Assembly (NCBI GenBank): GCA_030630935.1
Contig: DAOVMD010000005.1
Span: forward strand, 1-21,105
Direction of reading: 5' to 3'
Source: Candidatus Mcinerneyibacteriota bacterium
GTDB lineage: Bacteria > AUK180 > JAQVHJ01
DNA length: 21,105 nucleotides
Shown piece after piece: positions 1,424-18,603 of this stretch. Below the pieces are notes generated by a model that was not told the DNA's origin, did not search any database, and saw nothing but the letters and a program-made list of their open reading frames with translations. Position numbers and translations under genes: made by a program. Numbering within the stretch: position 1 is the first letter of the stretch; each line of letters begins with the position of its first letter.

Positions 1424-1453
1424 TTGACTTTAAACACATTGATGAAATATAAT
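1424..1453 (+). promoter_or_regulatory. Candidate sigma70-type promoter for the large operon
   Basis: TTGACT (1424-1429) and TATAAT (1448-1453) are separated by 18 bases. Nothing else this close to consensus is visible before the operon at 1739. A start near 1460 would give a leader of about 280 nt, much longer than needed for ribosome binding, so the leader may carry regulation. Confidence 0.55.
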
Positions 1454-1459
1454 AGTAGT

Positions 1460-1738
1460 GAGGCAAGAGGTTCTTTGAAATAATTTGAAACCGGATAGAA
1501 AATCCTGAAAAGAGGCTGGGCGAGTTACTCCTTCTAAAATATGAAAGGACGCTTCCCCTTTTAATTTTTTTCGCCAATTAAAGAAAACAGTACCTTCCAA
1601 ATAACAACACAACAACAGGTAGGCAATTCGAGCACCGACAGGCAGGCAACACGCATGCTGACAGGTCGAAGATTACGCCGCGCCATAAGGTGCGGTGCGC
1701 TGCTCGTCCAACCTCTTTTATATAAATAAAGGAATCAG
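1460..1738 (+). promoter_or_regulatory. Putative long 5' leader of the operon
   Basis: This lies between the 1424-1453 promoter and the ATG at 1739. It is richer in G and C than the DNA on either side and contains possible structure. An ACAGG-starting unit recurs at exactly 23-nt spacing (1615, 1638, 1661). The hairpin CCGCGCC-ATAA-GGTGCGG sits at 1678-1695 (one G-U pair). I could not match it to a known riboswitch. The Shine-Dalgarno AAAGGA (1728-1733) is at the end. Confidence 0.4.
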
Positions 1739-2134
1739 ATGAAGTTAATAGAGAAATTTGCAATCACATTATTAGTATTATTATTTCTATATTTAATTTA
1801 TGATAATTTGAGCAGGATAAATATGAATAATAGAATAGAATGCACAGAAGTTGAGGATATAATCGAACAGGAGAGCAGTGATCTTGGCCGTGTAACCCTT
1901 GATATGAACAGTATTCTTAATTACAGGGGCAGTTCAGATGAGACCATTATACTTCAGCGTCTGCTTAGCCGAATTCTTAAAAAACCGGTTAAACAAACAG
2001 GAAAATTTGATAAGGAGACACAGCGTTCATTGATTATCTTTCAAAAGATATTACGTTTGACACCGACCGGGAAGATGGATAGGGAGACAAAATTAGAACT
2101 CTGTAAACATATTCATCTGCTTTATGAAGAATAA
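1739..2134 (+). CDS. Membrane-anchored peptidoglycan-binding domain protein
   Basis: This is a 131-aa protein. Residues 1-22 form an N-terminal membrane anchor (KFAITLLVLLFLYLIYDNL) and a short linker follows. Residues about 65-122 match the PG_binding_1 (PF01471) pattern: an ILQRLL helix, TGKFDKETQRSLIIFQK, then a second TGKMDRETK turn. The paired TGxxDxET motifs and the FQ helix are the family signature. By family knowledge it binds cell-wall peptidoglycan; with a single anchor it would reach from the inner membrane into the periplasm. It is the first gene of a nine-gene operon and may fix the encoded apparatus to the wall. AAAGGA five bases upstream supports the ATG. Its end overlaps the next gene by 11 bases. 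The family call is firm; the role in a complex is inference. Confidence 0.8.
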   Translation: MKLIEKFAITLLVLLFLYLIYDNLSRINMNNRIECTEVEDIIEQESSDLGRVTLDMNSILNYRGSSDETIILQRLLSRILKKPVKQTGKFDKETQRSLIIFQKILRLTPTGKMDRETKLELCKHIHLLYEE

Positions 2135-2636
2135 ATATTATAATATATTGTTCTTTACTTTTGTAGTTAATTTAGCGATTCTTGTTCTTGGTTATTTCAA
2201 TACAATATTTATTGAGGATGAACCATATATAATTCGGGAGGAGGAACGAATGATCTTGAAAAACCTAAAGAGTTTTGAGATGAAGGAGAAGGAGTTTTTT
2301 ATTCTCTTTAATAAAATCCGAACCCGGGATGGTCTTGAAGGGTATGACTCAGTCAAGGAATTTTATACCAAGCTTCAGAAATTTCCACCGGAGCCGAAGG
2401 ATAAACTTCAAAAGACCTTGAACGAGTTATTCATTGAAGCCTATTCGGAAGCGGATAAATCGATTCAGAGAATTTATATTTATCGGAAGACAGGCGAACC
2501 TATCGCTTTAATTTATTCAAATCTTTTTGAGGATAAATTTATAAATAAGCGCGGAGAACTCCTTAAATCAATTTTAAGAACCAGGACCTTACTTAAGCAG
2601 CATATTAAGGATAGAAAAAATGCCAAAGAAAAATAA
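2124..2636 (+). CDS. Bitopic membrane protein, unknown function
   Basis: This is a 170-aa protein that I do not recognise. It has one hydrophobic segment at about residues 7-27 (ILFFTFVVNLAILVLGYF). The remaining 140 residues are charged, mostly helical in character, and contain no cysteines. The C-terminus is strongly basic (KQHIKDRKNAKEK). There is no catalytic motif. The ATG lies inside the end of the peptidoglycan-binding gene (11-base overlap) and has no obvious Shine-Dalgarno, so translation is probably coupled to it. It in turn overlaps the next gene by 17 bases. The anchor-plus-soluble-domain plan resembles periplasmic scaffold subunits of envelope machines, but that is inference. Confidence 0.7.
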   Translation: MKNKYYNILFFTFVVNLAILVLGYFNTIFIEDEPYIIREEERMILKNLKSFEMKEKEFFILFNKIRTRDGLEGYDSVKEFYTKLQKFPPEPKDKLQKTLNELFIEAYSEADKSIQRIYIYRKTGEPIALIYSNLFEDKFINKRGELLKSILRTRTLLKQHIKDRKNAKEK

Positions 2637-3075
2637 AGAATCGCTCCAACAAGAGATCAAGGAATTATTGGACATAGAAGATAAGCATGAAAGTATTGAC
2701 TTAGTAAATTATTTGAATGATCTTGATATTGAGCTTCAGCGTTTAATTAGAAATCTTTTAAAATTAAAGAATAATGCGGATCGGGCTACTGTTAAGGAGA
2801 CTGTTGAGAGTGTTAAGGTAGATAAGTTTCTGGAGTTTTATTTATGTGAAAATGGTTTTAAAGTAGAGAATAACCATGTGATGAAGGACGGGATAAGGTA
2901 TAAAGTATTCGAGAACACTTTTTCTTATCTAAAAAAGCATAATTTATTTCAGAAAAAACACTCTATTTTAGTTGTTCGAGGTGAGGAGAATAAAAGCAGG
3001 ATCCTTAAAGTAGCCCTTTTAGATAACCCGGTATTTATAAGGTTACCGGATAATTCAATTGAAAGGCTGGTTTAA
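2620..3075 (+). CDS. Soluble protein, unknown function, in envelope operon
   Basis: This is a 151-aa protein with no signal peptide and no membrane segment, so it is probably cytoplasmic. Residues about 5-65 look like long amphipathic helices rich in Leu, Glu and Lys (coiled-coil-like). Residues about 70-151 look like a small alpha/beta domain with strands such as KHSILVVRGEE and RILKVALLD. I recognise no family. AAGGA at 2607-2611 supports the ATG, and the gene overlaps its upstream neighbour by 17 bases. As the soluble protein between membrane subunits and just before the ATPase, it could be a cytoplasmic adaptor or stator; this is inference from position only. Confidence 0.65.
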   Translation: MPKKNKESLQQEIKELLDIEDKHESIDLVNYLNDLDIELQRLIRNLLKLKNNADRATVKETVESVKVDKFLEFYLCENGFKVENNHVMKDGIRYKVFENTFSYLKKHNLFQKKHSILVVRGEENKSRILKVALLDNPVFIRLPDNSIERLV

Positions 3076-3077
3076 TT

Positions 3078-3248
3078 ATGGATAGGTTTATAATATATTA
3101 TATTAATGGAATTATTACGGTCTGGATATTTACAAAGGCATATTACTTCCAGGTTGTTTCAATTTTAGGTTGTGTGATTTTAATCATTCAAGAGCTCTTG
3201 TTAATCAAGGAGAAAACCTCTTTTAAGAAGAAGGTCAGTTATGTTTAA
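3078..3248 (+). CDS. 56-aa membrane peptide
   Basis: An ATG two bases after the stop of the preceding gene opens a 56-codon frame, beginning MDRFIIYYINGIITVWIFTK and ending FKKKVSYV. It is hydrophobic from residue 4 to about 43, enough for one or two membrane helices (about 4-19 and 23-43), then has a basic tail (KEKTSFKKK). Its stop (TAA, 3246-3248) lies eight bases inside the next gene. Without it there would be a 165-base hole in an otherwise gapless operon, which supports it as a real gene. Small hydrophobic proteins are common next to VirB4-type ATPases (VirB2, VirB3), but similarity to either cannot be claimed from sequence. Confidence 0.6.
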   Translation: MDRFIIYYINGIITVWIFTKAYYFQVVSILGCVILIIQELLLIKEKTSFKKKVSYV

Positions 3249-3735
3249 ACCCAGTATTAAACAGTATCTAAGTCTGTCAATTTCGTACATCTTATTAGCA
3301 GCAGTATTACTTTTTGCAAATATGTTTATTGTTAAGCCTTTAGTAGGGGTTCTTAATAGTGTTTGTATTTTCACAACAATTCTTTTTATTCTTTATAATC
3401 CTTCAGAAGCCCGCAGGTTCATAATAAATTTAAAGCGCTTTATATTTGGTTATAATCTCGGATTATTAGGTTACAGGTTTTTATTATTATTAATTCTTCA
3501 AGTTCCGGCAGAGGAGTGGAATAAAATTTATAATATTAAATCACCAAAAGTTGTTGGATTCACAGGAAGGAACTTACTTGTTACATTATTGGTAATAGGA
3601 ATTTACATGATACCGATTGGGTATCTCACATATTTATTTAAATCTCTATTTTTCCATCCTAGAACAGATAGTCTCCGTAAGGAGCAAGAACGAATTTTGA
3701 GGACTGGAGATCAGGGTTTGAGACATGTGGAATAG
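3241..3735 (+). CDS. Polytopic membrane protein preceding the ATPase
   Basis: This is a 164-aa protein with about four hydrophobic segments near residues 10-30, 33-52, 72-88 and 111-133. Basic residues (RRFIINLKRF) lie between the second and third, and the charged tail runs from about 139. I do not recognise the family. It ends in TAG at 3733-3735. The ATPase frame is the same reading frame and begins only six bases later, so the two would form a single membrane-anchored ATPase if the amber codon were absent or read through. This makes it the likely inner-membrane partner of the ATPase, much as VirB3 is often fused to VirB4 in type IV systems. That analogy is structural, not based on sequence similarity. 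Confidence 0.7.
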   Translation: MFKPSIKQYLSLSISYILLAAVLLFANMFIVKPLVGVLNSVCIFTTILFILYNPSEARRFIINLKRFIFGYNLGLLGYRFLLLLILQVPAEEWNKIYNIKSPKVVGFTGRNLLVTLLVIGIYMIPIGYLTYLFKSLFFHPRTDSLRKEQERILRTGDQGLRHVE

Positions 3736-3741
3736 AAGAAA

Positions 3742-6700
3742 TTGAATTTACTTCAAAGAATAACAGGCTTATTTAGAAAAGAACAAAGACCATGCACAGA
3801 TATTTCGAGTGTTAATTTACTATATCAGGATATTATCGTTAAACAAAACAATAAGTTTGACCGTTTAGAACTTTGCGTAAGAGACTCATCTGAATCCACG
3901 CGGTGTAACGGATTTTATAAAACAATTAAATTATTAAAAGTTGTTAAGGTTCCGCAGCAATTACGTGAGCGCGAGTCTCTACTTGGAATTCATGCAGAAG
4001 TATTAAGTGGTTTATGGGTAAATAACATTGTTTTTATAAATATAATTGCAAATATAATTAATAATGATCGTGGCCGGAAGGGTTTATTATTTCTTTATGG
4101 AGTTGAAGGGACAGGTTCAACTCTGGAGGAATCCGTTATTTCTGCGGAAGAGGGGTATGCATCCTTAACAGGGTTATTAAGAGGAAACTTTAAACAATTA
4201 CGCTTTGAAGATTTAACAATGGGTGATTTCTCAGAGATCTTTTCGAGGATGGAAGGTTTTAAAAGACTTATGGTTATCAGGGGAATTCCTTCTTCGAAAT
4301 CTGGTATGGGAACTTCTGCCCAATCAGAACTCGGTTTCAATAATAGCCAAATTGAAGAGGTTAACGAGGAGTTTCTAAGAGGTTTAATAGATGAAGAATA
4401 TCTAATGGTTTCAATTTCTGTCCCGATTGATTATGGCACATTAAATTTTTGGATTCATGAAACTGCAACAAAACTCTCAAAATGGAAATCAGATGTTGAA
4501 GGGATGAAATCAATTACTGCCGGGGTCTCAATTCCTTTTATGATGATAGGAATGCTTGGTCGTCAAATGGGAAATTCATATCAGGAAGCGAGTAGTATTA
4601 CATCGACAAATTCCACAGCAGATTCCATAAGTGAGATGCTTACAACTGGGGAGAGTTCCGGTGTTACGCAGGGTGAGAGTATTTTAAACAGTATTAGCAC
4701 GACTGAGGGGACGAATGAAAGTCACGCGATCTCGAGCGGTTTTTCCGATTCACTTGGGAACAACATGGGGTTCTCGAAAGGAAATAACTATTCGGAAGGT
4801 AATCAAATTAATCATTCCGATAATGTTTCCAATTCACATAGTAATGGATCAAGTACGCAGGAATCAAATTCATATTCAAGAATGAATTCTCAAACTAACC
4901 ACCATTCAATTACACATTCCCAGTCCCAAACACGGTCTCATAGCGAGACTCATGGAGTTGGGCAAAACATTAATTTCTCTACTAATTGGGGTAAGAACAT
5001 CTCTAACTCATCTTCACTTGGTGAGAGTTGGCAGAATAACTTCTCCACAATAAATAGCAGGACAAACTCCAGCTCAATGTCAGATGGAATTTCTAATTCA
5101 GTAGGGAAAACGTCGTATGATAATTTTTACCAGACCAGCTTTTCCAAACCGCCAAAGATGCAGACTTGTGTTTGGAACTCTGGTTCAGGCTGGAATGCAG
5201 GGGCAGGTTTAAATGCCGGCATTGATGCGATTGGCGGTGCGATAAAGGGCGGGTATAATAAATCGCAGGGTTTTGCAGAGGGGTTCAGGCAGATAAATAA
5301 TTCGGATTTCATGGATTTTTACCGTGATACAAAAGACTTCCTTCCCCAGAGTCAAATGAATAATCCTTATAAAGTTTTCACACCAAAGAATGTTATGGGG
5401 ACAATGAGTAATGATATTCCTTTTGGTACGGGCTATACATTATACCAGGGTAATCCAATTACTAATAGTGTATCCAATAATATTACAAATTCAGTTGGTG
5501 AAGCAATTACAAACGGTGTTAATATAAGTAATGGTTTAGGAGGAAATGTTGTTAATTCAATTGTGAACGGAGTATCCCGGAACCTTGGTATCACGACAGG
5601 TTTTTCAAGGCAGCAATCTGTAACGGATGGTTGGAGTGTTACACAGGGAGTTGCAGAAACATTCGGGACATCTCAGACAACTGGGGTATCAGAGGGTATG
5701 ACTCAGGGAAATTCTCAGATGATAACAAATGGAACTTCAAACGGGTATAGCGATGGATACTCTAACACGAATAGTACCGGAGGTTCATCTGTTTATAATA
5801 CAGGCAACTCCATTAATAGAGGATCAACATATTCAAGTTCATTTTCAAATGGAACAAATCAATCGACGTCATCCACTGAAGGTACTACAAAAATGAATTC
5901 AACTTCTCACCAGGTCTCGACACAGGAGACTAAAGGTACTACTCAAACGGAATCAAGAGGGAATAGCATAGGTCTGGTAAACGGATTCGGATTTAACCGG
6001 GGAATAAATGCCGGGTTATCTTCAAGTTTTGGGCTTGCCCCGTCAATTATGATCAGCCATTCAAGACGTGAGTTTGATGAAGCAAGAGAGAATATTTCCA
6101 GGTTATATGGTGTATTAAAGGAGAGGTTATTAGTTGGATTAAATACAGGTATTTTCTCAACTTCAACTTATATTATTACTCCTGATAACTTCGTAGCATC
6201 AAAAGCAAAGGCCTTAATAAAAAGTGCATTTCTTAATAATGAACTTCTTAGCCCAATTCAGATTTTGGAACCTAAGGAAGAAACAGAAGAATATCTAAGA
6301 CAATATCTTAAGACCTTTGGGCAATGTACTCTTCCCGAAGAAGATTCGCATCCTATTGAAACATATAAATATTGCCAGACGTTATTACCAAGAGAGTTGG
6401 CAGCATTTAATCATCCTCCACGAGTGGAAATAGGCGGAATATATACAACAGTTGAAAATATCCCGGATTCTTTTGCGCTACCCAGTGATAGGCTTGGAAA
6501 GATTGAGATTGGAACAATAATTTCTCCGGAGACAGGGGAGAGTTCAATTTTCAGGTTTGGATTAACAGAAAACGAAATTGTACACACTTCAATTTATGGA
6601 ATTACAGGGAGCGGAAAAACCAATGGTGCACTTCAGTATATAACTCAAATTGCAAATAACTTCAAGAATATAAACATTAATATATTTGATTTTAAAAATG

Positions 6701-7716
6701 ATTGGAGAAATTTATATAATGCAATTACTGATAAAGACAGGTTTAGATTTTTTAGTTTATATAATGAAAAGTTACACCCGTTTAGATTTAATCCGTTAAG
6801 GGTTCCAAAAGGCCTAGATGCTGAAGAGTGGAAGGATACTATAACAGAAGTATTTTGCCTTGAAAACCTACTGGGAGAGAAACAATTTGGAATTATTGAT
6901 CAGGCAATTTATAAGCTATATGAAGATAATGGAGTATTTGATGACCCTGATAAGAGCTCTTTTCTCTCTTCAAAAATTACACTGGTTGATTTATATAACC
7001 TTTTAAAGCAGGAATCAGGAGACGTGAAAAGTAAGAACCTCCTTGATTCATATCATGGGATACTTATTAGACTTCGAAAATTTACTAATAAAAAATCAAG
7101 GCTATTTAAATTATACAGCACGCCTTATCAATCGATAAAGGTTGAGAATTTATTTAATAAAAATTATATTACTGTTTTTGAAGGTCAAAGGTTAGATCAT
7201 CAGACAAAAAAATTTATTCTGGGTCTTGTTGCCGCAGCGGAATATAAATATTCCCTTGCATACCCAACCGAAGAACTATCGCGTATGATTGTATTTGAAG
7301 AAGCTCATGAGATAATTAAAGGTTCAGATAGCCTTGACAGTCCTATTAAAGAAACGAGTATATATGAAAAAATGTTCATGGAATGCCGTGGTTTGGGAAC
7401 GATGATTGTAATTATTGCACAGAATATGTCAATGATACCATTGACGGTAAGGCAAAATTGTCCTAATCTATTTATTTTTAAGCTTACAAATGAAGAAGAT
7501 TTAAAGTTAGTTATGCGGAGCATTGGTCGTGATGAGCGAATTGACCACAGGGATATAATCAGGTATATTGCAAACAAGGGGATTGGGTACTCGACAGTAA
7601 AAATTGGGAATGTAACGGATTACTTAAAGGCACAGCCTGTGGAAGTTTTATTTGATTATAAAAAAATAAAGAGGATTTCAGATAATGAACTTGAAAGAAT
7701 ACCAAGTCGTATTTAG
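3742..7716 (+). CDS. HerA/VirB4-like (DUF87-type) ATPase with Ser/Asn-rich insertion
   Basis: This is a 1324-aa putative motor. Residues 1-270 form a globular domain with a LYGVEGTG stretch, as in the N-terminal parts of VirB4/HerA-like pumps. Residues about 275-765 are a Ser/Asn/Gly/Thr-rich low-complexity region, broken at about 469-569 by a more ordinary segment. The ATPase core follows: Walker A GITGSGKT at 953-960; Walker B with the HerA-type EEAH signature, MIVFEEAHE at 1182-1190; a possible arginine finger R1216 in ECRGLG; and sensor IIAQN at 1224-1228. Such ATPases are hexameric pumps for DNA or protein. The start is TTG with a poor ribosome site, and the first internal Met comes about 160 residues in. 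The end overlaps the next gene by 32 bases. The ATPase class is firm; the substrate is unknown. Confidence 0.85.
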   Translation: MNLLQRITGLFRKEQRPCTDISSVNLLYQDIIVKQNNKFDRLELCVRDSSESTRCNGFYKTIKLLKVVKVPQQLRERESLLGIHAEVLSGLWVNNIVFINIIANIINNDRGRKGLLFLYGVEGTGSTLEESVISAEEGYASLTGLLRGNFKQLRFEDLTMGDFSEIFSRMEGFKRLMVIRGIPSSKSGMGTSAQSELGFNNSQIEEVNEEFLRGLIDEEYLMVSISVPIDYGTLNFWIHETATKLSKWKSDVEGMKSITAGVSIPFMMIGMLGRQMGNSYQEASSITSTNSTADSISEMLTTGESSGVTQGESILNSISTTEGTNESHAISSGFSDSLGNNMGFSKGNNYSEGNQINHSDNVSNSHSNGSSTQESNSYSRMNSQTNHHSITHSQSQTRSHSETHGVGQNINFSTNWGKNISNSSSLGESWQNNFSTINSRTNSSSMSDGISNSVGKTSYDNFYQTSFSKPPKMQTCVWNSGSGWNAGAGLNAGIDAIGGAIKGGYNKSQGFAEGFRQINNSDFMDFYRDTKDFLPQSQMNNPYKVFTPKNVMGTMSNDIPFGTGYTLYQGNPITNSVSNNITNSVGEAITNGVNISNGLGGNVVNSIVNGVSRNLGITTGFSRQQSVTDGWSVTQGVAETFGTSQTTGVSEGMTQGNSQMITNGTSNGYSDGYSNTNSTGGSSVYNTGNSINRGSTYSSSFSNGTNQSTSSTEGTTKMNSTSHQVSTQETKGTTQTESRGNSIGLVNGFGFNRGINAGLSSSFGLAPSIMISHSRREFDEARENISRLYGVLKERLLVGLNTGIFSTSTYIITPDNFVASKAKALIKSAFLNNELLSPIQILEPKEETEEYLRQYLKTFGQCTLPEEDSHPIETYKYCQTLLPRELAAFNHPPRVEIGGIYTTVENIPDSFALPSDRLGKIEIGTIISPETGESSIFRFGLTENEIVHTSIYGITGSGKTNGALQYITQIANNFKNININIFDFKNDWRNLYNAITDKDRFRFFSLYNEKLHPFRFNPLRVPKGLDAEEWKDTITEVFCLENLLGEKQFGIIDQAIYKLYEDNGVFDDPDKSSFLSSKITLVDLYNLLKQESGDVKSKNLLDSYHGILIRLRKFTNKKSRLFKLYSTPYQSIKVENLFNKNYITVFEGQRLDHQTKKFILGLVAAAEYKYSLAYPTEELSRMIVFEEAHEIIKGSDSLDSPIKETSIYEKMFMECRGLGTMIVIIAQNMSMIPLTVRQNCPNLFIFKLTNEEDLKLVMRSIGRDERIDHRDIIRYIANKGIGYSTVKIGNVTDYLKAQPVEVLFDYKKIKRISDNELERIPSRI

Positions 7717-10700
7717 TATCGTCTTAGTCTTAATATTCAGTATTTCAGTCAGTGTTTTCCCTGCATCTGAATTTGATAATGTCATAAATAAACGTGGGAC
7801 GATTTATATATCCTTAATCTCGATAATTCGGTTAATGGATGTTGAAGACCGGAACCTGATGATTTCTGGGAGTGATTTATCCAGGATAAAAGCTGCTTAT
7901 ATTTTGAAGAATATTCTTGATGTGCTTGAGTTATTAAAGTCCAATCCTGAGTTAATGGATAAGATTCAGCCAACAGAGAACGAGAGGTATAACATATATC
8001 TTTTACAGAAGGAGCTTGGACCTGAGTTACGGTTATTTGGACTTAACTTACAAGTAATAGAAGTAAAGGTTCCGGAGACCATAACCAGGAGTACTAAACT
8101 CACAAAGAATATAAATCAAACCACAGTTGTAAAAACGGTTGAGGAATATTCTGAGTATGATGATTTTGATTTTGAGGATGAGAATTATTATGAAGAGGAG
8201 TTTGAACCAGAGATAGTTAATGTTAAGGCTCCGGAAAAAGTGAAGAAAAATTATATCACCGGGATGTTCTCAGCAATGTATAATAATAACCTTCTTCAGG
8301 GAGAGAATTATTATGACCAGAAAACAATGCTGCCGGTATTCGAAAGTACGGGAGAGTATTTTACTCAAGTATTCAACTTGAAAGTTGTCCGAAGCCTAAA
8401 AACCGAAACGGATTTTTTCTTAGACCTTTCAATAAGTTATGATTCATTAGATATCCCCGTGAATTTTGAATTTGAACGTGACCATATTTATTATAAACCA
8501 AAGCGATTTAACTATTCATTAAACCTACTTGAGATTAAAAAGGAACAGACCTACACTTTAACAGCGGGTATTATTCAACCGGAGTTCTGGAGCTTTTATT
8601 CATTAGATATGTTAAGTACGCAGGGTTTGAAATTGCAATTTAAGAAGTCGTTAACAGTTGTTCTTTTAAAAACTCGATTCCCGAGAGTTACTTGGCAAGA
8701 CGACTTGTTTGAACTGCACCCGGGTAATTTTGAAAGCTGGGGCTTAGGTCTGAGATATAAAAAGAATTTCACAAAGAGCTTTTCAATAAATGGTTATTTA
8801 TTAGATATAGAAGATAACCCGTCAAGTCTTCCTGTTTCAGAGAGAGAAAAACAATTTTCACCTAAAGATGAGCTTGAACTTTATTCCTTAACTGTTTTGG
8901 ATTTCTCAATTGATTCAATTGATGAAATAGAAAAAGTTTTAAATGATATTAATTTATTAAAAAGTTATCTTACGAGCGTAATGGAACAATACTTGTTTAC
9001 ATATTATGGCGGGAATTTTAATTTCCTGGGATTTGAAGATTTAAAGGAGTTGTTTTATTTATTTCAAACGTTCTATGATGAGTTCGGGAGACCGATTGAT
9101 TTTCCGGAACCAATACCCAGACCGTATCCTGAATCTGAATTAGAAAATAGATATACAGATATTTTAATTGACTTGGATTGGGTAATATTTGAGATTAATT
9201 CAATTTTAACATACGACTTTAATGATAGCGGAGTTTTAGTTTCACCCGAACTTACAGGGGCCAGGATAAATAATATAAATAATAATATGGTCTTAATTAT
9301 CCTGGATATGAACAGAGTAATCAATAGAATAAATAAATATTCATCAGGAACTTCATTTAATTATTGTACTCATGTTCTGATTCCGCTATGGAAAAAGATT
9401 AAGAAACTGAACACTGGGCTCGGCAGTGAGATTGGGGCTCAAATGGACTTATTGATTTCGGAAACTTATAGATTGATGGGGTTCGGATTAAGAAACCTAA
9501 CTTCACTTTCGAATAAATATTTTAATGATGCGGAGGATTTAAATTATATAGAGATGCTTGCGATTCCTACTGAGCCTGAAACATTAGTTTATTCAATTCA
9601 ACAGGAATCATTTCAAATTATAGGTTCAGATATTAAGCTTGATTTTAAGGAACTTGAAAATTCGCATTTCTATTCGGAAGTTTCGATTATGAGGAAAAAT
9701 CTTTCCGGGGAAGAAGATTTTGCATCTGCTGCTCATTCAAACCTAATATTAGGTTTTGGTAATTTTCTATTACGGAGTCAAATGTTCAATATTGGTTCAG
9801 CATATTCGAATCCTATGATTCATCGAAAGATAAACCCCCTTGATCAGGCGACTGTTATTGAAGAGAGGAACTATCCGTATCAGCCCGGGATGAAGGGAGG
9901 TGAGTTGGACACATTACTTAAAGTTCCGATTAAGGAAAAAACTCTTATTATAGGAGCGGGATTTAAAACTACGTTATGGGAACTGGAAGAGATTTATGAA
10001 GAAACGAAATTTGGAAAATTGGGGCTTGAAATAAAGGAGGAGTATGGAAATCTTTATTTAGAGTATAATCAGGGCCTATCATTGTTTGAATCCCGTTTAG
10101 AAGACTCGATCTATGATGCGAACTTCACAAGGGTGCTAGGTAATTTCCTTTTAAGAATTTCAAAACATTCTAATCTAAACGGAAATATTACCTCCGAAAT
10201 TATTAAGTGTGATGCAACTGATGAAATTTTACTCAGGAAAAATAAAACAAATCTTGAGTTGAAGATTAACCTCGGAAACTTCCACATGTTAGTAATGAAT
10301 TATATAATTGGCGAGAAAATATCGCCAAACTCTTCCGATTGTAATGACTATATTCTTCAGGGAACATGTAATTATATCTATAAATTTAATGAGAAATCAC
10401 CAATGTCCTTTTCACCTGAATTCAGGTATAAGTTAAGAAGAAGTATTGAAGATAATAAGGATCGGGAGAAATTGAAGGAATGGGAGTTTGGTATTTTATA
10501 TCGATATTCACCTTCTGATAATTTCACATTTGGTGCAAACTTCTTTTATACCAGCTTAAGTGTGGAACAACCTTTTATTAATGTTAATACGGGCGAGGTT
10601 GAATATGATATTTTTAATGAGTCAATCTCGGGCGAGAGCGCAACCTTTAATACCATCTCAGGATCTGTTAATTTTAAACCGGCATTCTTTCGTAATATTC

Positions 10701-11059
10701 AATTTTTTAATGAAGCAACCCAGCGGTTATATACTTATGAATCCACGTTTTATGAACCTGTTCAGAAAGAGACAAGGTTTCATAATAAATTCAGATTGAC
10801 ATATAATATAATAAAGAAGGATCTCCTCGAAGGGAATTTTGAATATACAAACCTATTATGGAAAACGGAGAGTATTTCACAAGATTCTGTTTCTTATCAT
10901 GCCCCAAAAAAAACGGCTGATATTATCGGGTTTAATTTTAAAATTAAAATTAATGAGAGGTCTGATATTTTGATGGATTATAAATTGAATAGGTTATTTG
11001 AAGACTCAATTGAAAGAAATTATTCGAAGATAATTGTAATTAGTAACTGGAGGTTCTGA
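7685..11059 (+). CDS. Large outer-membrane beta-barrel protein
   Basis: This is a 1124-aa protein. Residues 1-27 form a signal peptide (FSIVLVLIFSISVSVFPA, cleavage near FPA-S). An N-terminal, mainly helical domain (about 30-140) is followed by a very acidic, Tyr-rich linker (153-178). From about 190 the sequence shows alternating polar/hydrophobic strands with aromatic ends typical of a barrel. A helical stretch of roughly 250 residues interrupts it (about 395-650) and could be a plug or periplasmic insert. The protein ends in IVISNWRF, a good C-terminal aromatic barrel-insertion signal. I cannot name the family. AGAGGA (7670-7675) supports the ATG, which lies inside the ATPase gene. It is a candidate outer-membrane pore or anchor for the apparatus; the barrel call is by eye. 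Confidence 0.7.
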   Translation: MNLKEYQVVFSIVLVLIFSISVSVFPASEFDNVINKRGTIYISLISIIRLMDVEDRNLMISGSDLSRIKAAYILKNILDVLELLKSNPELMDKIQPTENERYNIYLLQKELGPELRLFGLNLQVIEVKVPETITRSTKLTKNINQTTVVKTVEEYSEYDDFDFEDENYYEEEFEPEIVNVKAPEKVKKNYITGMFSAMYNNNLLQGENYYDQKTMLPVFESTGEYFTQVFNLKVVRSLKTETDFFLDLSISYDSLDIPVNFEFERDHIYYKPKRFNYSLNLLEIKKEQTYTLTAGIIQPEFWSFYSLDMLSTQGLKLQFKKSLTVVLLKTRFPRVTWQDDLFELHPGNFESWGLGLRYKKNFTKSFSINGYLLDIEDNPSSLPVSEREKQFSPKDELELYSLTVLDFSIDSIDEIEKVLNDINLLKSYLTSVMEQYLFTYYGGNFNFLGFEDLKELFYLFQTFYDEFGRPIDFPEPIPRPYPESELENRYTDILIDLDWVIFEINSILTYDFNDSGVLVSPELTGARINNINNNMVLIILDMNRVINRINKYSSGTSFNYCTHVLIPLWKKIKKLNTGLGSEIGAQMDLLISETYRLMGFGLRNLTSLSNKYFNDAEDLNYIEMLAIPTEPETLVYSIQQESFQIIGSDIKLDFKELENSHFYSEVSIMRKNLSGEEDFASAAHSNLILGFGNFLLRSQMFNIGSAYSNPMIHRKINPLDQATVIEERNYPYQPGMKGGELDTLLKVPIKEKTLIIGAGFKTTLWELEEIYEETKFGKLGLEIKEEYGNLYLEYNQGLSLFESRLEDSIYDANFTRVLGNFLLRISKHSNLNGNITSEIIKCDATDEILLRKNKTNLELKINLGNFHMLVMNYIIGEKISPNSSDCNDYILQGTCNYIYKFNEKSPMSFSPEFRYKLRRSIEDNKDREKLKEWEFGILYRYSPSDNFTFGANFFYTSLSVEQPFINVNTGEVEYDIFNESISGESATFNTISGSVNFKPAFFRNIQFFNEATQRLYTYESTFYEPVQKETRFHNKFRLTYNIIKKDLLEGNFEYTNLLWKTESISQDSVSYHAPKKTADIIGFNFKIKINERSDILMDYKLNRLFEDSIERNYSKIIVISNWRF

Positions 11060-12555
11060 TGACTAAAAAGATAGTTTTAATTTTAGGGATTATAATGGTG
11101 GTTTTCCTTACTAACTGTGTCAGGCTGGAAGATGAGTTTCTGCCGAATACTGAAATAGTGAATAGGGAAGACGGGGCTTTTCCTAAAATTGTATTTACAG
11201 GAGATTCCCCCGATGACGGGCAAAGGATTTCAAGAAATTATGTTACATTTTCCTGGGAAGGTTATGATGATTTGTGCCTTCCTTCTAACTTAATGTTTAA
11301 AACTTCATTTGACGATGAAGAAGATTCGGAGTGGAAAAGCTTTAATGAGAAGTTCGTTACACATATTGAAAAAGGAAATCATCAGTTTATTGTAAAGTGT
11401 AAAACGACAGAAGGTCGGATAAATTCTGAAACGGTTAACTTTTCTATTACAACTGAATTTACGAATGACTGGGACCCACCAGAAATCCTGGGTTATGATT
11501 ATTTTCATCCTAATCATAGTGAATTTTTTCTAATTACTTCGGATGGCTTTGAATGGAGTAATTCTCAATTTTTAGAATACGAGATCGACCCGGCAGCGTT
11601 TTATATTTTATTAAACTGGGACTTTTGTTTTAGAGATGTAAACGATATCACACCACAGGAACAGTTGGAATATGAAATTAAAATTCTGGATAATGACATA
11701 GAAAGCGAATGGATTAAACTGGGGCATAATACAGAGTTTCTTTTTAATGTTGAACTGTACGAATTGATATTATCAAAAAACTTTGACGAGGGTAAGACAC
11801 TGAAGTTCAGGGTTAGATGCCTGGATGCTTGTGGGAATATCAGTGAATTTATCGAGAAGACAATAGAGATTTTATTTATTCCGCCGGAACTTGAGATTTT
11901 ATTCTTTGAATGGAATACCGGTGCTGGTCGGGAGTTTTTTCAATTTATCTGGGATGATGCGTTGGAGGATGGAAATATCCCGGCATTATCTATTGTTCTG
12001 AGAAACAACTCTGGGTATAGCGGAAAGGTTAGAGTTGAACGGAATTTTTTTAAATATACATTTAGGTTTATGAAAAAACTATTTGATAAGCCGCTTGCTG
12101 ATATTTCGAAGGATATTTTCTTGTATGATGTTCTCGAAAGAAAAAAGATAAATAATGAATTTTTAATACACTCGAAACAAGTAAAGGAGATTCGGTTTGT
12201 TTGTGACCGTGATTTTGAGGAGGTTGAAGATTATGAGATTTACTCAGCATTCCTAAGTTTAAATGGTCTTAAGAAACTATGTAAGTGCTATGAATCAGAT
12301 GGGGATACAGTAAAAAATTACTTGAGGATAAATGGCGATTTATCCAGTGACTTGATTTCTGACCAGAAAGGTTATTATTATAATTTTCCCGATTGGGACT
12401 TGGAACTCATTGAACCAAGGGTGGAATACGAATGCAGTACCTATGCAGCAGACTATTTTATCAAACTATATATTTCTTCCTTAAACGGGGTTTCAGAAAT
12501 AATGATTGAAAAGGATATTGGATATAACTTATTTTTTAAAACTAATAACAGGTAG
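11059..12555 (+). CDS. Lipoprotein with Ig/fibronectin-like domains
   Basis: This is a 498-aa protein. Residues 1-20 are a lipoprotein signal (IVLILGIIMVVFLTNC) with the acylated Cys at 20; Asn at the -1 position is less usual than Gly/Ala/Ser. Two beta-sandwich-like segments follow, at about residues 35-135 and 170-275. Both show a 'W..Y/F..R..D' style, with phrases such as YVTFSWEGYDD and FRVRCLDACGNISEF that recall Ig-like or Y_Y_Y-type domains. The C-terminal 220 residues are unrecognised. GGAGG at 11049-11053 supports the start, and the ATG overlaps the preceding stop (TGATG), indicating coupling. It would sit on the outer membrane beside the barrel encoded just upstream and may be its lipoprotein partner. 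Confidence 0.7.
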   Translation: MTKKIVLILGIIMVVFLTNCVRLEDEFLPNTEIVNREDGAFPKIVFTGDSPDDGQRISRNYVTFSWEGYDDLCLPSNLMFKTSFDDEEDSEWKSFNEKFVTHIEKGNHQFIVKCKTTEGRINSETVNFSITTEFTNDWDPPEILGYDYFHPNHSEFFLITSDGFEWSNSQFLEYEIDPAAFYILLNWDFCFRDVNDITPQEQLEYEIKILDNDIESEWIKLGHNTEFLFNVELYELILSKNFDEGKTLKFRVRCLDACGNISEFIEKTIEILFIPPELEILFFEWNTGAGREFFQFIWDDALEDGNIPALSIVLRNNSGYSGKVRVERNFFKYTFRFMKKLFDKPLADISKDIFLYDVLERKKINNEFLIHSKQVKEIRFVCDRDFEEVEDYEIYSAFLSLNGLKKLCKCYESDGDTVKNYLRINGDLSSDLISDQKGYYYNFPDWDLELIEPRVEYECSTYAADYFIKLYISSLNGVSEIMIEKDIGYNLFFKTNNR

Positions 12556-12563
12556 GGGCTACT

Positions 12564-14549
12564 ATGAAGAAATGGTTATCATTATTTTTTTTAATCGTTT
12601 TGATCCTTTTTAATTTAGGTAATAAATATTATTATAAATATATGCAGAAGGTAATTGTTGAGAATTCAAGCTTTTCAGAAACTCTCCCTGAAAAGTACAC
12701 AGTCGTTTTGGAAATTGATCTGGATAAATTGGTCGATGAAGGGAAAATAAATTCTTATAATAATTTAAAGATTCTATTTTGTTCATCCGGGGAGTTCTTA
12801 GAGGTTCCTGTCCTGATTTATTCTGATAAGACTAAAGATGAAAAGATTTGGTTTCGCTTGAATAAAACTATATCAGAAGGTTGTTCGGATGATAATTATT
12901 ATTTGGTATATTCAACTCAAACCTATTCTTCTGATGAGAGCATAGAAATTGAAGCATCAAGCGATAATGAAAAATGGATATTTGAAAAAGACTTCAGTTT
13001 ATGGAAACAATTCAGAACAACGGGTGAGGTTGACCTGGAATGGGGAACAGAAGAAGATATTCTATATGTTTTTGACCCCATAGACGGCAATTCAGCGGTT
13101 GGTAGAAAAGGATTTAAGTTCATGTCTTCCCTGAAAATAAAATCAATTAGTTTTGAAGGGCTCCAATTCTTCGAAACTGATTATGAGATATTAAAGCTTA
13201 CATCGGGCTGGGGAAAACTTTGGCAAACTGAAGATATTAATAACGGGGAGACCGCTTCAATTTCAATTAATAACCTTAATAACGATCTGTTAGCGAAAGA
13301 CCTGACTTTTGTTCAGGCGGTGGTGGTACCGTTTGATAATTATCTGTTAAACTATTTCAAAATAAATAGAGTTGAAGTGGGATTTGCTGACCCGCCGAAG
13401 GTCTATACTTTAGGTGAAGAACAGATTGGCGGGGTGGAAGCGTTTAAGTATTATAGAAAACTTTCTTTAGAGAATACTTCTCCGGAATATAAAATTCCTG
13501 CCGGATATTATATTATGCTTGAAATGAATACAAAGGATCTTGCAGCTGATGATAAGGTTCAGGAAGACTGTAGTGATCTGCGGGTTTTTTATTACGATTC
13601 CGAAAATCTAATATGGCATCAATTGGAAAGGCTGGTGATAAATCCTAATCACGAGAGAACAAGAATTTGGTTCAGGACTTTCAATCAGGTTAATCCAAGT
13701 GAAACAGATGAGTATGTACTTTATTATAAATCAAAAACTCAAATTGAGAATGTTTCAACATTAAATCTTCCTTTTTCGGATGAGTCGGATAATAGTGTGC
13801 TGTTGTTTAATGATGATTTTTCAGATTTCGAAGAGATAATCAGTAAACCGGGCTGGATACTTGGAAATGATTCGAATCTATTAATCAATACGGAAATCAA
13901 TACACCAGTTTCAGGATTTGCAGGATTTAGATACCAGAATAATTTGGAAATTTATGACTTGATAATCTCAGGGAAAACGAATAACCCAAACGGAGACCTG
14001 TTAATTGAAATTACAGATTTAAATAATGAGGTAATCTTTGAATTTGATCCTGTAACCCAATATTTTACTGATTTGATAATTCCGGTTAATTGTGATGAGA
14101 AAAGAGTTGTGAAGTTTAAAGTAAGATCTGTTGTCCCAGGAACAGTGTTTAACAAGACAAGAGGGTTATACCTGTCAAAAGTTAAGTTTGATATTGTTTA
14201 CCCGCTGGTGGTTACACTGGATATCAATGAATATACAAACGAAGACTATTCTCCCGGGGAAGAAGAAAAGGATGTTGAATATGAAAATAAGTTCTCAGTA
14301 ATAAATAACCTGTTAATCGGGGAAGAGAAAAAAATAATTATAAATATTTCTCATGATCGTGAAGAATCAGTTAAAATTGATCTTTATGATATCTCAGGTA
14401 AGAAGGTTGCAGCGATATTCAATGAACGAATTGCTCCGGGGATAAAAACGATTACCTGGGACTGTAATATGCTGAACTCGGGCACCTATTATATCGTCTG
14501 TGAAACGGGCAGCCGTGTTTATAAAAGGACGATTATGAAAATTAGATAA
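12564..14549 (+). CDS. DUF2341-like surface protein with T9SS type A-like sorting domain
   Basis: This is a 661-aa exported protein. Residues 5-20 are hydrophobic (signal peptide or anchor). Residues about 28-120 resemble DUF2341: VDEGKINSYNNLKILF, then VPVLI, KIWFRL and YYLVYST. A second copy at about 293-392 repeats the pattern with CSDLRVFYYD, RIWFRTF and EYVLYYKS. Residues 602-661 form a C-terminal beta domain of the T9SS type A/FlgD-Ig pattern: IDLYDISGKKVA, PGIKTITWD, SGTYYIV and a basic RTIMKIR end. By family knowledge such domains direct proteins across the outer membrane to the surface in FCB bacteria. It is the last gene of the operon, eight bases after the lipoprotein gene. It may be the exported cargo or an external part of the machine. 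Confidence 0.75.
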   Translation: MKKWLSLFFLIVLILFNLGNKYYYKYMQKVIVENSSFSETLPEKYTVVLEIDLDKLVDEGKINSYNNLKILFCSSGEFLEVPVLIYSDKTKDEKIWFRLNKTISEGCSDDNYYLVYSTQTYSSDESIEIEASSDNEKWIFEKDFSLWKQFRTTGEVDLEWGTEEDILYVFDPIDGNSAVGRKGFKFMSSLKIKSISFEGLQFFETDYEILKLTSGWGKLWQTEDINNGETASISINNLNNDLLAKDLTFVQAVVVPFDNYLLNYFKINRVEVGFADPPKVYTLGEEQIGGVEAFKYYRKLSLENTSPEYKIPAGYYIMLEMNTKDLAADDKVQEDCSDLRVFYYDSENLIWHQLERLVINPNHERTRIWFRTFNQVNPSETDEYVLYYKSKTQIENVSTLNLPFSDESDNSVLLFNDDFSDFEEIISKPGWILGNDSNLLINTEINTPVSGFAGFRYQNNLEIYDLIISGKTNNPNGDLLIEITDLNNEVIFEFDPVTQYFTDLIIPVNCDEKRVVKFKVRSVVPGTVFNKTRGLYLSKVKFDIVYPLVVTLDINEYTNEDYSPGEEEKDVEYENKFSVINNLLIGEEKKIIINISHDREESVKIDLYDISGKKVAAIFNERIAPGIKTITWDCNMLNSGTYYIVCETGSRVYKRTIMKIR

Positions 14550-14955
14550 CCTTAAAACTTCAATATAGTTAATAATGTCGGGGTCTCATGTCTGAGCTGG
14601 CGCTTCTAAGGTTCCGGCATTATTATAACACGCTTGAGATCTTTGAATTGCGGTATAATCGAGTAATCAAGGTAAGACCATTGTGAGCTTAAGTGAAATT
14701 ATGGTGTACGCTCGTAATATTTAGTTTTATAATTGTAGTTGTAAGTATTCCTTTTTGTAAAACGGATAACATGTATGAGAATACAGGAAAGTCTATGGAT
14801 GAATATTAGATGATATAAAAGATTATAGATAAGTAACAATAATGAGACATGATGTTTAGAAAGTGCTTCAAGGATTCTGGTATTATTATAACACGCTTGA
14901 GATCTTTAAATTGCAGTATAGTCGAATAATCAAGGTAAATCCGCAGGAGGTTAAG
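14550..14955. other. Intergenic region with degenerate tandem duplication
   Basis: This 406-base spacer contains two related copies of one leader sequence, at about 14601-14690 and 14863-14955. The left copy runs on into a decayed duplicate of the beginning of the downstream barrel gene. No clear rho-independent terminator is seen after the operon's last stop at 14549. The repeated leader contains TTATTATAACACGCTTGAGA and a TATAAT-like element, so it may include the promoter of the barrel gene, but I could not place a -35/-10 pair with confidence. Confidence 0.6.
14693..14809 (+). pseudogene. Truncated duplicate of the barrel gene's signal peptide
   Basis: Starting at GTG 14693 there is a 38-codon frame, VKLWCTLVIFSFIIVVVS... 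ending NTGKSMDEY and TAG. It aligns with the first codons of the barrel protein at 14956 (MKLKSTLVVISFIIILVG...NTGMFLEII) at a constant offset of 263 bases. The preceding leader is duplicated too. The AGGAGG ribosome site of the intact copy is changed here to GTGAGC, the start is GTG, and the frame stops after the signal peptide. I read it as the relic of a tandem duplication. A live 38-aa exported peptide is less likely. Confidence 0.6.
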
Positions 14956-15882
14956 ATGAAATTAAAAAGTACGCTCGTAGTTATTAGTTTTATAATTATA
15001 CTTGTAGGTATCGCTCTTTGTAAGGAGGAGAGGGCGTGGGGGAATACTGGGATGTTCCTGGAGATTATTAAGCCGGTTAAGGGTTCGGCGAGTGCGAATG
15101 GGGGCTGCGGAATGTTATGGGGTATTGATTCTGTCGGGATTAATCCTGCCGGGGCAGTTGGAGTATTCGGGTTTGAAGCACAAGTGGAGTATATAAACTA
15201 TTTAAATGATTTCAAGGTGCAGCGTCTGGTATTCGGAACCAGGACAAGGCTTGGTGTATTCATTATTGATTATACTTCATTCGGTTCAGATGAGTTTGAG
15301 ATTATTACGGAAGAATCACCCGGGGGAACAGGAGAATTCTTTTCGGAGAAGGATTCGGTTGCAAGTTTAATATACTCAAGACACTTTTTCTTTAAGAATT
15401 TTTACTGGGGGGTTGGACTGAAGAAGATGACAATGAAACTGTATGAATACTCATCATCATCAATTTTATATTCAACAGGCTTCTTATTTTATAGGGATGG
15501 TCTCGGGATTGGGGCCTCTATGATTAATGCAGGTGGGACGGTACAGTTTATTGAGGAGAAGGAAAAGATACAGGAGACTTATCGATTTGGTTTAAGCTTA
15601 AGAATTTATCAAGGTAAAGGAGGTGATTTAATAACCATATTTGATGTGATTAAAGGGAAGGAAGATGACCCGAAGTTTGTGCTGGGTCTTGAATTTGGAT
15701 TTATTGATATGTTCAGCTGTAATATCGGATATAGAATTGATGACGGTGAAAACGGGATCAGCGCAGGGTTGGGGTTTAATCTTAAATTGAAATCGGGAAT
15801 GGTGATGATGTTAAGCACTTCCTATTCCGATATTGGGGTGTTAGGTGAAAAGAACGGTGTTTCATTAGGTATAAAATGGTAA
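14956..15882 (+). CDS. PorV/PorQ-like (UPF0164-type) outer-membrane barrel protein
   Basis: The chosen start at 14956 gives 308 aa. It has AGGAGG (14945-14950) at ideal spacing and begins directly with a signal peptide (residues 1-23, STLVVISFIIILVGIALC). An in-frame ATG at 14863 would add 31 unlikely residues and lie in the duplicated leader. The mature protein shows the PorV/PorQ pattern: an early Gly/Ala stretch followed by GIDSVGINPAG, alternating Gly-rich beta strands, and the ending SYSDIGVLGEKNGVSLGIKW, close to the family's C-terminal barrel signature. Relatives act in T9SS export or as small outer-membrane barrels. It follows the gene for a T9SS-type protein, so a role in exporting or anchoring that protein is plausible but unproven. 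Confidence 0.75.
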   Translation: MKLKSTLVVISFIIILVGIALCKEERAWGNTGMFLEIIKPVKGSASANGGCGMLWGIDSVGINPAGAVGVFGFEAQVEYINYLNDFKVQRLVFGTRTRLGVFIIDYTSFGSDEFEIITEESPGGTGEFFSEKDSVASLIYSRHFFFKNFYWGVGLKKMTMKLYEYSSSSILYSTGFLFYRDGLGIGASMINAGGTVQFIEEKEKIQETYRFGLSLRIYQGKGGDLITIFDVIKGKEDDPKFVLGLEFGFIDMFSCNIGYRIDDGENGISAGLGFNLKLKSGMVMMLSTSYSDIGVLGEKNGVSLGIKW

Positions 15883-15895
15883 AAGGAGGTTTATG

Positions 15896-16423
15896 ATGAA
15901 AAAGATCATTTATGTTTTAACAATAATATTAATCTCGGCAGCTTTTGTTTTTGCCGGGGAAGATACTTCAAAGGAGAATACTGAGAAAGAAAACGATGAA
16001 AAAAGCAGAATAGAGAGCATAAAAGAGAAACAGAAAAAACAAAAAGCCGGGCAGAGCGAGAGTTCTACATTGGAGAAGGAGAAACCTCTTGAGGATAGAA
16101 TTCTTGATATGGAGGGAACCCTTGAACAGGAAAGGTCAAAGAAGAAGATCGAGGAAGACCGAATCCTAAGTACAAAATGCACAACTCATGAGAAGAGAAC
16201 CTTCCGCACTATCCTGATGGAGCTCTTTGGACTTAAGAAAAGACAGAAACCGAAAATTGAAAAACCCGATGAAAGGAAAAAGAAAGAAGATAAAATAATA
16301 ATTGATAAAGAGACTCAAGACCAAATCAACGAAAGAAAAGATGAAAGAATCTTACCGAAGAACCCCGATTCAGAAAAGAAGGAGGACGATGATAAAATAG
16401 AAAGACCTGTAAAGGATAAATAA
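15896..16423 (+). CDS. Secreted, highly charged Lys/Glu-rich protein
   Basis: Start 15896 gives 175 aa; ATG 15893 is also possible, but AAGGAGG (15883-15889) sits six bases from 15896 and only three from 15893. Residues 1-20 are a clear signal peptide ending FVFA-GED. The mature part is almost all Lys, Glu, Asp, Arg and Gln, with helical coiled-coil character and recurring phrases EDRILDME, EEDRILST and DERILPKN. One less charged island (CTTHEKRTFRTILMELFGL) lies near the middle. I do not recognise it. It begins 13 bases after the barrel gene and is probably co-transcribed, suggesting a periplasmic partner or spacer of that barrel. Confidence 0.65.
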   Translation: MKKIIYVLTIILISAAFVFAGEDTSKENTEKENDEKSRIESIKEKQKKQKAGQSESSTLEKEKPLEDRILDMEGTLEQERSKKKIEEDRILSTKCTTHEKRTFRTILMELFGLKKRQKPKIEKPDERKKKEDKIIIDKETQDQINERKDERILPKNPDSEKKEDDDKIERPVKDK

Positions 16424-16870: not shown

Positions 16871-17131
16871 ATGATAAAGAAGATAGCGATTAGTTTGCCG
16901 CAAGAGGATTTTGATAAGATGGAGAAAGCCCGGAAGAAGCTTGGTCTTAAGCGTAGTAAGTTCATTTACAATACGATTAGGTTCTGGTTAAAATACCAGG
17001 AGAAACAGGAACTTATCAGACAATATGAAGAAGGCTATAAAAAATATCCTGAAACAGAAGAAGAACTCGCCGAGTTAGAAGTTTGGGAAAAAGCTTATGG
17101 AGAAGCACTTGAAGAAGAAGGATTGTTATGA
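16871..17131 (+). CDS. Ribbon-helix-helix antitoxin
   Basis: This is an 86-aa protein. Residues 2-9 (IKKIAISL) form the expected DNA-binding beta strand. Helix A (about 10-25, PQEDFDKMEKARKKLG) and helix B (28-44, RSKFIYNTIRFWLKYQE) complete a CopG/MazE-type ribbon-helix-helix fold. The acidic C-terminal tail (about 50-86, many Glu) would wrap the toxin and neutralise it. The TGA stop overlaps the toxin ATG (ATGA), so the two are translationally coupled. AAGGAG five bases before the ATG supports the start. The promoter carries repeats suited to autoregulation. The type II antitoxin assignment rests on the fold pattern plus the linked MazF toxin. Confidence 0.85.
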   Translation: MIKKIAISLPQEDFDKMEKARKKLGLKRSKFIYNTIRFWLKYQEKQELIRQYEEGYKKYPETEEELAELEVWEKAYGEALEEEGLL

Positions 17132-17442
17132 AAAAAGGTGAGGTTTGGTGGGCGACATTGCAAAAACCTATTGGGACTCGACCTGTTGTTTTACTTTCTC
17201 GCGATGAGTCATATAGATTCAGAAATGCTTGCACTATTGCCCAGGTTACATCCAGAATTCGTAATATTCCAGTTGAGGTATTATTGGATCAAAAAGACGG
17301 TCTTCCAATAAAAAGTGTTGTAAATTTAGATACACTTGAGACAATTCAAAAGTCAAAATTAAAAAGAAAAATCTGTACACTAAAACCGGATAAGATCAAA
17401 GCGATTAATAAAGCGATTAAATTTGCATTGGATTTGGAATAG
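17128..17442 (+). CDS. mazF: MazF/PemK-family endoribonuclease toxin
   Basis: This is a 104-aa protein whose length is usual for the family. The MazF/PemK signature is clear: KKGEVWWATL at 2-11, GTRPVVLLSRD at 16-26, IAQVTS at 37-42, then the VEVLLD strand and the SVVNLDTLETIQKSKL segment. R18 and T41 correspond to the catalytic Arg and Thr of characterised MazF enzymes (R25 and T48 in Bacillus subtilis MazF), so it is probably active. The loop before the catalytic Arg is a few residues shorter than in the Bacillus protein. Family members cut mRNA at short sequences and stop translation. It overlaps the antitoxin gene by four bases. A perfect hairpin starts three bases after its stop. Confidence 0.9.
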   Translation: MKKGEVWWATLQKPIGTRPVVLLSRDESYRFRNACTIAQVTSRIRNIPVEVLLDQKDGLPIKSVVNLDTLETIQKSKLKRKICTLKPDKIKAINKAIKFALDLE

Positions 17443-18518: not shown

Positions 18519-18552
18519 GTTGAGCCGCCGCTTTATTATGGGTTAGCTTAAT

Positions 18553-18595
18553 TTGACAAAGTTATTTGGAAGTGTTATAATATATTAAAAAGGAG
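18553..18595 (+). promoter_or_regulatory. Consensus promoter and ribosome site of second TPR gene
   Basis: TTGACA (18553-18558) and TATAAT (18576-18581) match both consensus hexamers and are 17 bases apart. AAAAAGGAG (18587-18595) follows, eight bases before the ATG at 18604. These sites show that translation was built to start at 18604 and not at an internal codon. Confidence 0.75.
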
Positions 18596-18603
18596 TTAGT
18601 AAA

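Follow-up and report, generated by a model that had tools for sequence, protein, structure and literature searches.

Does a compact run of same-strand genes around a HerA-type ATPase encode a single machine that spans the cell envelope, and what would such a machine move? The question is raised by contig DAOVMD010000005.1 of a Candidatus Mcinerneyibacteriota bacterium (assembly GCA_030630935.1), for which an initial annotation, made from the sequence alone, had proposed that nine genes at positions 1739-14549 form one undescribed apparatus from cytoplasm to surface. The window analysed here is the entire contig of 21,105 nucleotides, and its source genome (G000) is an incomplete metagenome-assembled genome (MAG) of 3.16 Mb in 471 contigs, 80% complete. 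What the locus has in common with its relatives is an inner-membrane and cytoplasmic core, while the outer part is lineage-specific. The inner core is probably a translocator of the type found on mobile elements, with the outer-membrane parts serving as a lineage-specific replacement for a pilus.

The gene cluster and its ATPase

The nine open reading frames (ORFs) were confirmed on the plus strand at their annotated coordinates, and their tight coupling was also borne out: adjacent genes overlap by 11, 17, 8, 32 or 1 bases or are separated by gaps of 2, 6 or 8 bases. The features of the cluster, including two genes that we add downstream, are as follows (TM, transmembrane segment; aa, amino acids; T9SS, type IX secretion system).

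1424-1453, plus strand: promoter-like TTGACT-18-TATAAT; the leader that comes after it has about 285 bases
1739-2134, plus strand: gene 1, bitopic wall-binding protein (PG_binding_1), 131 aa (Pfam, hydropathy)
2124-2636, plus strand: gene 2, bitopic protein, 170 aa, one TM, about 145 aa outside the cytoplasm (hydropathy)
2620-3075, plus strand: gene 3, soluble protein, 151 aa (hydropathy, no TM)
3078-3248, plus strand: gene 4, one-TM peptide, 56 aa (hydropathy)
3241-3735, plus strand: gene 5, polytopic membrane protein, 164 aa (hydropathy, three strong segments)
3742-7716, plus strand: gene 6, HerA-type ATPase, NF033849 "serine-rich protein" (NCBIfam, Pfam, motifs)
7685-11059, plus strand: gene 7, exported 1124-aa protein, probable outer-membrane barrel with C-terminal -WRF (strand statistics, conserved WRF)
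11059-12555, plus strand: gene 8, putative lipoprotein, 498 aa (hydrophobic signal, LTNC motif)
12564-14549, plus strand: gene 9, exported 661-aa protein with a T9SS-type C-terminal sorting tail (Pfam/NCBIfam, marginal)
14863-15882, plus strand: gene 10, PorV/PorQ-family barrel, with the ATG at 14956 as the likelier start (NF033709 below cut-off, homolog in a second genus)
15893-16423, plus strand: gene 11, small, highly charged exported protein (similar length and composition beside the PorV-like gene in the second genus)

Gene 6 matched the NCBIfam model NF033849 (ser_rich_anae_1, "serine-rich protein") with 761.5 bits against a cut-off of 650, over model positions 11-1161 of 1163. By this score the ATPase is a member of an already named HerA-type pump family, rather than a new one, and the family name refers to composition only. 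Its assignment to the FtsK/HerA superfamily is based on the match to DUF87/HerA (32.2 bits, Pfam cut-off 23.2) and on intact Walker A (GITGSGKT) and Walker B (MIVFEEAH) motifs; the closest solved structures are HerA-type proteins. The protein consists of an N-terminal domain (residues 1-280), which gave chance-level matches only in Pfam and the PDB, a region rich in Ser, Asn, Gly and Thr (281-780; 19, 13, 12 and 11%, respectively) and the ATPase domain (781-1324). Searches of the open-licence literature by accession and by combinations of context recovered no paper on the family. The term "undescribed" in the initial annotation does not hold for the ATPase, which belongs to a named family; the outer set is specific to the lineage of G000 and its relative G001.

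Pfam and hydropathy also supported the PG_binding_1 domain of gene 1 (36.3 bits, cut-off 23), the HerA domain and the predicted topologies of genes 1-5: genes 1, 2 and 4 each have a single TM, gene 5 has three strong segments, and gene 3 lacks a TM. Genes 2-5, 7 and 8 had no family match in the Pfam and NCBIfam profile scans, and none of the small proteins matched a profile of a type IV secretion system (T4SS), conjugation or phage family. We also considered a phage module, which is unlikely, as no relative of the ATPase or the lipoprotein was found in viral contigs and none in phage records.

An inner core shared with clostridial plasmids

Full-length relatives of the ATPase were identified by tblastn on two large clostridial plasmids, pRUMAL01 of Ruminococcus albus 7 (L039) and pB6464 of Alkaliphilus (L040). 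With 1615 and 1116 bits against NF033849, respectively, both are nearer to the centre of the family than the ATPase in the window. Two more relatives came from genome searches: G353:C15 (735 bits), which lacks its N-terminus because the contig ends there, and G534:C17 (902 bits), which has a frame break. The G534 genome has 7% contamination, and its contig may come from another organism. In all four of these out-of-phylum relatives with readable downstream sequence, the ATPase gene is followed by Tad/Flp genes: CpaB, CpaE-like, CpaF, TadB/C, Flp pilin, A24 peptidase and TadE on both plasmids, CpaE-like, CpaF, TadB-like and peptidase-like genes in G353, and CpaB and a CpaE-like ORF before the contig end in G534. 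Since homologous ATPases are thus located beside Tad/Flp pili on the two plasmids and in two other genomes, in the absence of the barrel, lipoprotein and wall-binding genes, the proposal of one undescribed apparatus is not supported, and part of what the initial annotation had named as refuting evidence has been observed.

The similarity to the plasmid loci extends upstream of the ATPase, where both plasmids encode, in the order seen in the window, a bitopic protein (277 and 296 aa on pRUMAL01 and pB6464, as compared to 170 aa in the window), a soluble protein (502 and 481 aa vs. 151 aa), a one-TM peptide (59 and 66 aa vs. 56 aa) and a polytopic protein (172 and 186 aa vs. 164 aa). The 59-aa peptide of pRUMAL01 (L039:11083-11262), which occupies the position of gene 4 between two annotated genes, was missed by the annotators. 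Gene 5 and the plasmid polytopic proteins give a weak but colinear alignment of 89 columns (BLASTP E 0.004 and 0.007; E 3e-4 in one hhalign comparison), and these counterparts ranked 1 and 5 among 204 ORFs from the plasmid and comparison loci in the gene 5 profile comparison. In the corresponding comparisons of genes 1-4 and 8 with the 204 ORFs, no credible match was obtained and the positional counterparts were unranked; no counterpart of gene 1 was found in the plasmid loci. Sequence similarity thus argues strongly for homology to the plasmid versions for the ATPase, and moderately for the polytopic protein.

On both plasmids, the bitopic gene is preceded, at distances of 17 and 131 bases, by a gene for a single-stranded DNA-binding protein (SSB; Pfam SSB 34.7 and 39.7 bits), and the plasmid soluble protein is weakly similar to Replic_Relax (E 0.007, below the cut-off). 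A more distant relative of the ATPase on a Pontibacillus megaplasmid (392 bits, below the cut-off) is part of a gene run in the order SSB-soluble-polytopic-ATPase. At 10-21 kb from it are another SSB, a Replic_Relax-like gene and a Tad locus, the last at about 15 kb from the run. A Priestia megaplasmid carries the set of SSB, Replic_Relax-like and Tad genes, and no ATPase of the NF033849 type in the stretch that was read. G366, G352 and more distant Bacillota HerA-like genes score far below the family cut-off and were excluded from statements on synteny, and G581 is a fragment.

Two other loci with HerA-type ATPases were observed. In one (L051:11896-13875), in another genome, the ATPase is fused to a C-terminal winged helix-turn-helix and nuclease-like module, which resembles, by eye only, the soluble Replic_Relax-like plasmid proteins. 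In the other (L050:4165-12113), two genes for dynamin-like GTPases come first, then those for two small proteins and for a HerA-type ATPase that contains Ser; this locus may represent a separate system.

Conservation in a second genus

Homologs of the cluster genes were identified in G001, a likewise incomplete MAG from a different genus of the same family, where they are split over four contigs.

C447: enolase, followed by genes 1 and 2
C416: gene 5, ATPase
C294: end of the ATPase, barrel, lipoprotein
C260: end of the lipoprotein, gene 9, an additional T9SS-tailed protein, PorV-like protein, charged protein

C416 and C294 are broken within one ATPase gene, and C294 and C260 have a near-identical end of the lipoprotein gene in common. 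Because the contigs end inside shared genes, the gene order in G001 agrees with the window; an assembly gap takes up gene 4 and most of gene 3. Sequence identities are 28% for gene 1, 55% for gene 2, 69% for gene 5, 62% for the ATPase, 41% for the barrel, 47% for the lipoprotein, 46% for gene 9 and 46% for the PorV-like protein, and an overlap of 32-35 bases between the ATPase and barrel genes is retained in both genera. With homologs that are 28-69% identical and arranged in the same order, the nine genes are no chance run of ORFs, and the genes are kept together in a second genus, which supports this part of the initial annotation. Since a homolog of the PorV-like protein and a charged protein of similar length and composition also follow downstream in G001, the cluster probably extends beyond 14549, as far as 16423.

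Among the seven genomes sampled from the phylum, the ATPase and the other cluster genes were not found in the remaining five. A profile search with the barrel recovered G000 and G001 only (2 of 386 genomes), and a contig scan with a single-sequence query recovered only the contig of G001 itself.

A similar promoter-like TTGACT-17-TATAAT precedes the cluster at the equivalent place in G001 (L082). The leader is long in both genera (window 1454-1738; G001 L082:2230-2409), with GGACGCTTyCCCTTT in common and the remainder diverged; an Rfam scan of the leader gave chance matches only and no fitting family. The segment between gene 9 and the PorV-like gene (window 14550-14955) appears to contain a decayed duplicate of the upstream region and 5' end of the PorV gene (TATTATTATAACACGCTTGAGATCTTT is repeated), and at this position G001 has the intact additional T9SS-tailed gene instead.

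Probable outer-membrane and surface proteins

Gene 7 is a probable outer-membrane barrel, as suggested by the C-terminal -WRF that is conserved in G001 and by weak strand statistics. Its C-terminal 484 aa are enriched in amphipathic strands (z 2.3 and 2.7 in the two homologs), with values of 1.4 and 0.2 for the whole proteins. The word "barrel" in the initial annotation is thus backed by the conserved motif and a modest strand enrichment and not by a structure, the model being unusable. The T9SS-type tail on gene 9 scored just above the cut-off for TIGR04183 (23.8 bits, cut-off 23) and just below that for Pfam Por_Secre_tail (25.9 bits, cut-off 27), and gene 10 fell short of the NF033709 cut-off (64.9 bits, cut-off 90). 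The links of the cluster to T9SS are thus marginal. A search for SprA gave no match and was uninformative, as the control genomes were equally without a match.

Comparison with known systems

Among the closest known systems are the NF033849 and Tad/Flp loci on pRUMAL01 and pB6464, which have the ATPase family, the Ser-rich insert and the bitopic-soluble-one-TM peptide-polytopic-ATPase order in common with the window. The plasmid loci differ in having an SSB upstream and a Tad pilus downstream, whereas the window has the wall-binding protein upstream and the barrel, lipoprotein, T9SS-type and PorV-type genes downstream. None of the Tad/Flp pilus genes (CpaF, TadB/C, Flp pilin) was found in the window; other T2SSE ATPases exist elsewhere in the source genome.

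The cluster also resembles the inner complex of conjugative T4SS (VirB3-VirB4-VirB8; TcpD/TcpE-TcpF), in which small and polytopic membrane proteins are encoded immediately upstream of an FtsK/HerA-superfamily ATPase, together with a bitopic protein. In T4SS, VirB3-like proteins are usually encoded beside virB4, in the known layout just upstream of it (PMC12857230), and the position and topology of genes 2, 4 and 5 fit VirB3-like and VirB8-like proteins, without any profile match. The cluster may work like a T4SS inner complex. However, the window ATPase matches DUF87/HerA and no VirB4 model (Pfam E<=1), with TrbE models at 10.8 bits (E 0.07), and no relaxase, coupling protein or VirB9/10 was found among the window proteins scanned, the rest of the genome not having been searched. 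The earlier view that the locus does not fit T4SS is upheld, as no VirB4, relaxase or T4SS model matched the window proteins.

In the archaeal Ced/Ted systems, a HerA/VirB4-like pump is paired with Ups pili and transports DNA (PMC9905601, PMC11868833). The likeness lies in a pump with membrane partners beside type IV pili, which is comparable to the pairing of the plasmid ATPase with Tad. The window differs in having outer-membrane parts and no pilus; the CedD model gave 32.1 bits (cut-off 600), and no CedA or CedA1 homolog was found. TdtA of Thermus is presented, in the available part of its description, as a hexameric FtsK-HerA ATPase for DNA donation without a T4SS or relaxase (PMC5365140). 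It is likened here by description, not by sequence, and that part of the source describes no outer-membrane partners. On plasmids of C. acnes, Tad loci beside VirB4-like genes have been interpreted as signatures of conjugation (PMC5696575). The window resembles T9SS in the C-terminal sorting tail, of marginal score, and the PorV-family protein, but contains none of the core components. Judged by the features tested, the locus is no T4SS and no Tad locus, and by the curated cut-offs no Ced or HerA defence system.

A candidate translocation machine and its alternatives

The reading that we favour, with confidence a little short of even, is that the cluster encodes a HerA-type translocation machine, conserved in its inner core and particular to this lineage in its outer part, and that the substrate would most likely be DNA. 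The ATPase would form a hexameric ring at the inner membrane, anchored by the products of genes 4 and 5 (in the VirB3/TcpE position beside VirB4), gene 2 (in the VirB8 position) would link the ATPase to the periplasm, and gene 1 would anchor the machine to the wall. The barrel and the lipoprotein would provide the exit through the outer membrane, standing in for the Tad pilus in a cell with two membranes, and genes 9-11 would decorate the surface. DNA would be moved for export or exchange, as by HerA-type pumps in Ced/Ted and in Thermus transjugation. DNA is the first guess for the plasmid members because of the precedents of Ced/Ted, TdtA, the VirB3-virB4 layout and the C. acnes Tad/VirB4-like loci; from plasmid context and superfamily, it is also our best guess overall. 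The substrate at the window locus may have changed relative to the plasmid members, since the window has neither the SSB nor the large soluble protein, and enolase is the neighbor in G001.

Several observations weigh against this interpretation. No SSB, primase or relaxase is encoded in the window, and the enolase gene upstream in G001 gives the locus a chromosomal appearance. For genes 2, 3 and 4, no sequence similarity could be detected to the plasmid proteins at the equivalent positions, the correspondence being one of order and topology only, and the order of the four-gene core is known from two plasmids only. The outer set is likewise known from only two genomes, both incomplete MAGs. The AlphaFold2 models of the gene 7 barrel (single sequence, mean pLDDT [predicted local distance difference test] 28.6) and of the N-terminal domain of gene 6 (two sequences, mean pLDDT 28.8) were left uninterpreted. 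Finally, HerA-type ATPases serve in repair and defence too.

The last point leads to an alternative that we consider very improbable, namely that gene 6 is a HerA helicase for repair or anti-phage defence with accidental neighbors. After NF033849, the best profile and structure relatives are indeed HerA proteins of repair and defence systems, but the HerA repair/defence model gave only 41.9 bits, far below its cut-off of 800, no NurA, Sir2 or nuclease partner was found among the window proteins, and membrane proteins flank the ATPase gene in every locus with readable upstream sequence. It is less improbable, though still doubtful, that the locus combines a degenerate or recently acquired remnant of plasmid conjugation with an unrelated outer-membrane operon downstream of it, so that there is no single machine. 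The different distributions of the core and the outer set, with core-type ATPases in several phyla and the barrel in two genomes, speak for this reading. A remnant is, however, difficult to reconcile with open frames at 41-62% identity, the gene order and the ATPase/barrel overlap maintained in two genera, or with a promoter-like site upstream and genes coupled through overlaps.

A protein secretion or surface-display device, in which a plasmid-derived core now powers the assembly or export of the products of genes 9-11 instead of moving DNA, is the main rival; it is unlikely in our view, yet has more in its favor. All of the downstream genes encode exported proteins, among them a PorV-family barrel, and both gene 9 and the additional G001 protein have T9SS-type tails; profile scans of the window proteins revealed no DNA-handling gene, and the G001 locus adjoins enolase. 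On the other hand, T9SS cargo exits via its own machine and not via HerA-type pumps, and the ATPase family elsewhere accompanies SSB and Replic_Relax-like genes on plasmids.

Other features of the window

Three further features were observed downstream of the cluster.

16871-17442: toxin-antitoxin pair, RHH-like (ribbon-helix-helix) antitoxin and PemK/MazF toxin (67.6 bits)
17973-20026: two tetratricopeptide repeat (TPR) proteins whose repeats closely resemble each other; the second has 445 aa and 12 TPR_1 matches
20081-21058, minus strand: WG-repeat protein with 8 repeats

Implications

A broader proposal, which we put forward as speculative and somewhat unlikely, is that the NF033849 ATPases and their four membrane and soluble partners constitute a class of cell-to-cell DNA-transfer machines apart from T4SS. 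The outer part of these machines would be exchangeable, consisting of a Tad pilus in the single-membrane hosts of the plasmids and of an outer-membrane barrel, lipoprotein and surface proteins in the two-membrane lineage. Some large Bacillota plasmids have Tad loci and no recognised transfer apparatus, and the recurring combination of SSB, membrane partners, Ser-rich HerA-type ATPase and Tad pilus is a concrete candidate for such a machine. NF033849, a family that has been annotated yet left unexplained, thereby gains a genomic context, and the locus in the window would illustrate how a core of this kind has been adapted to a two-membrane envelope.

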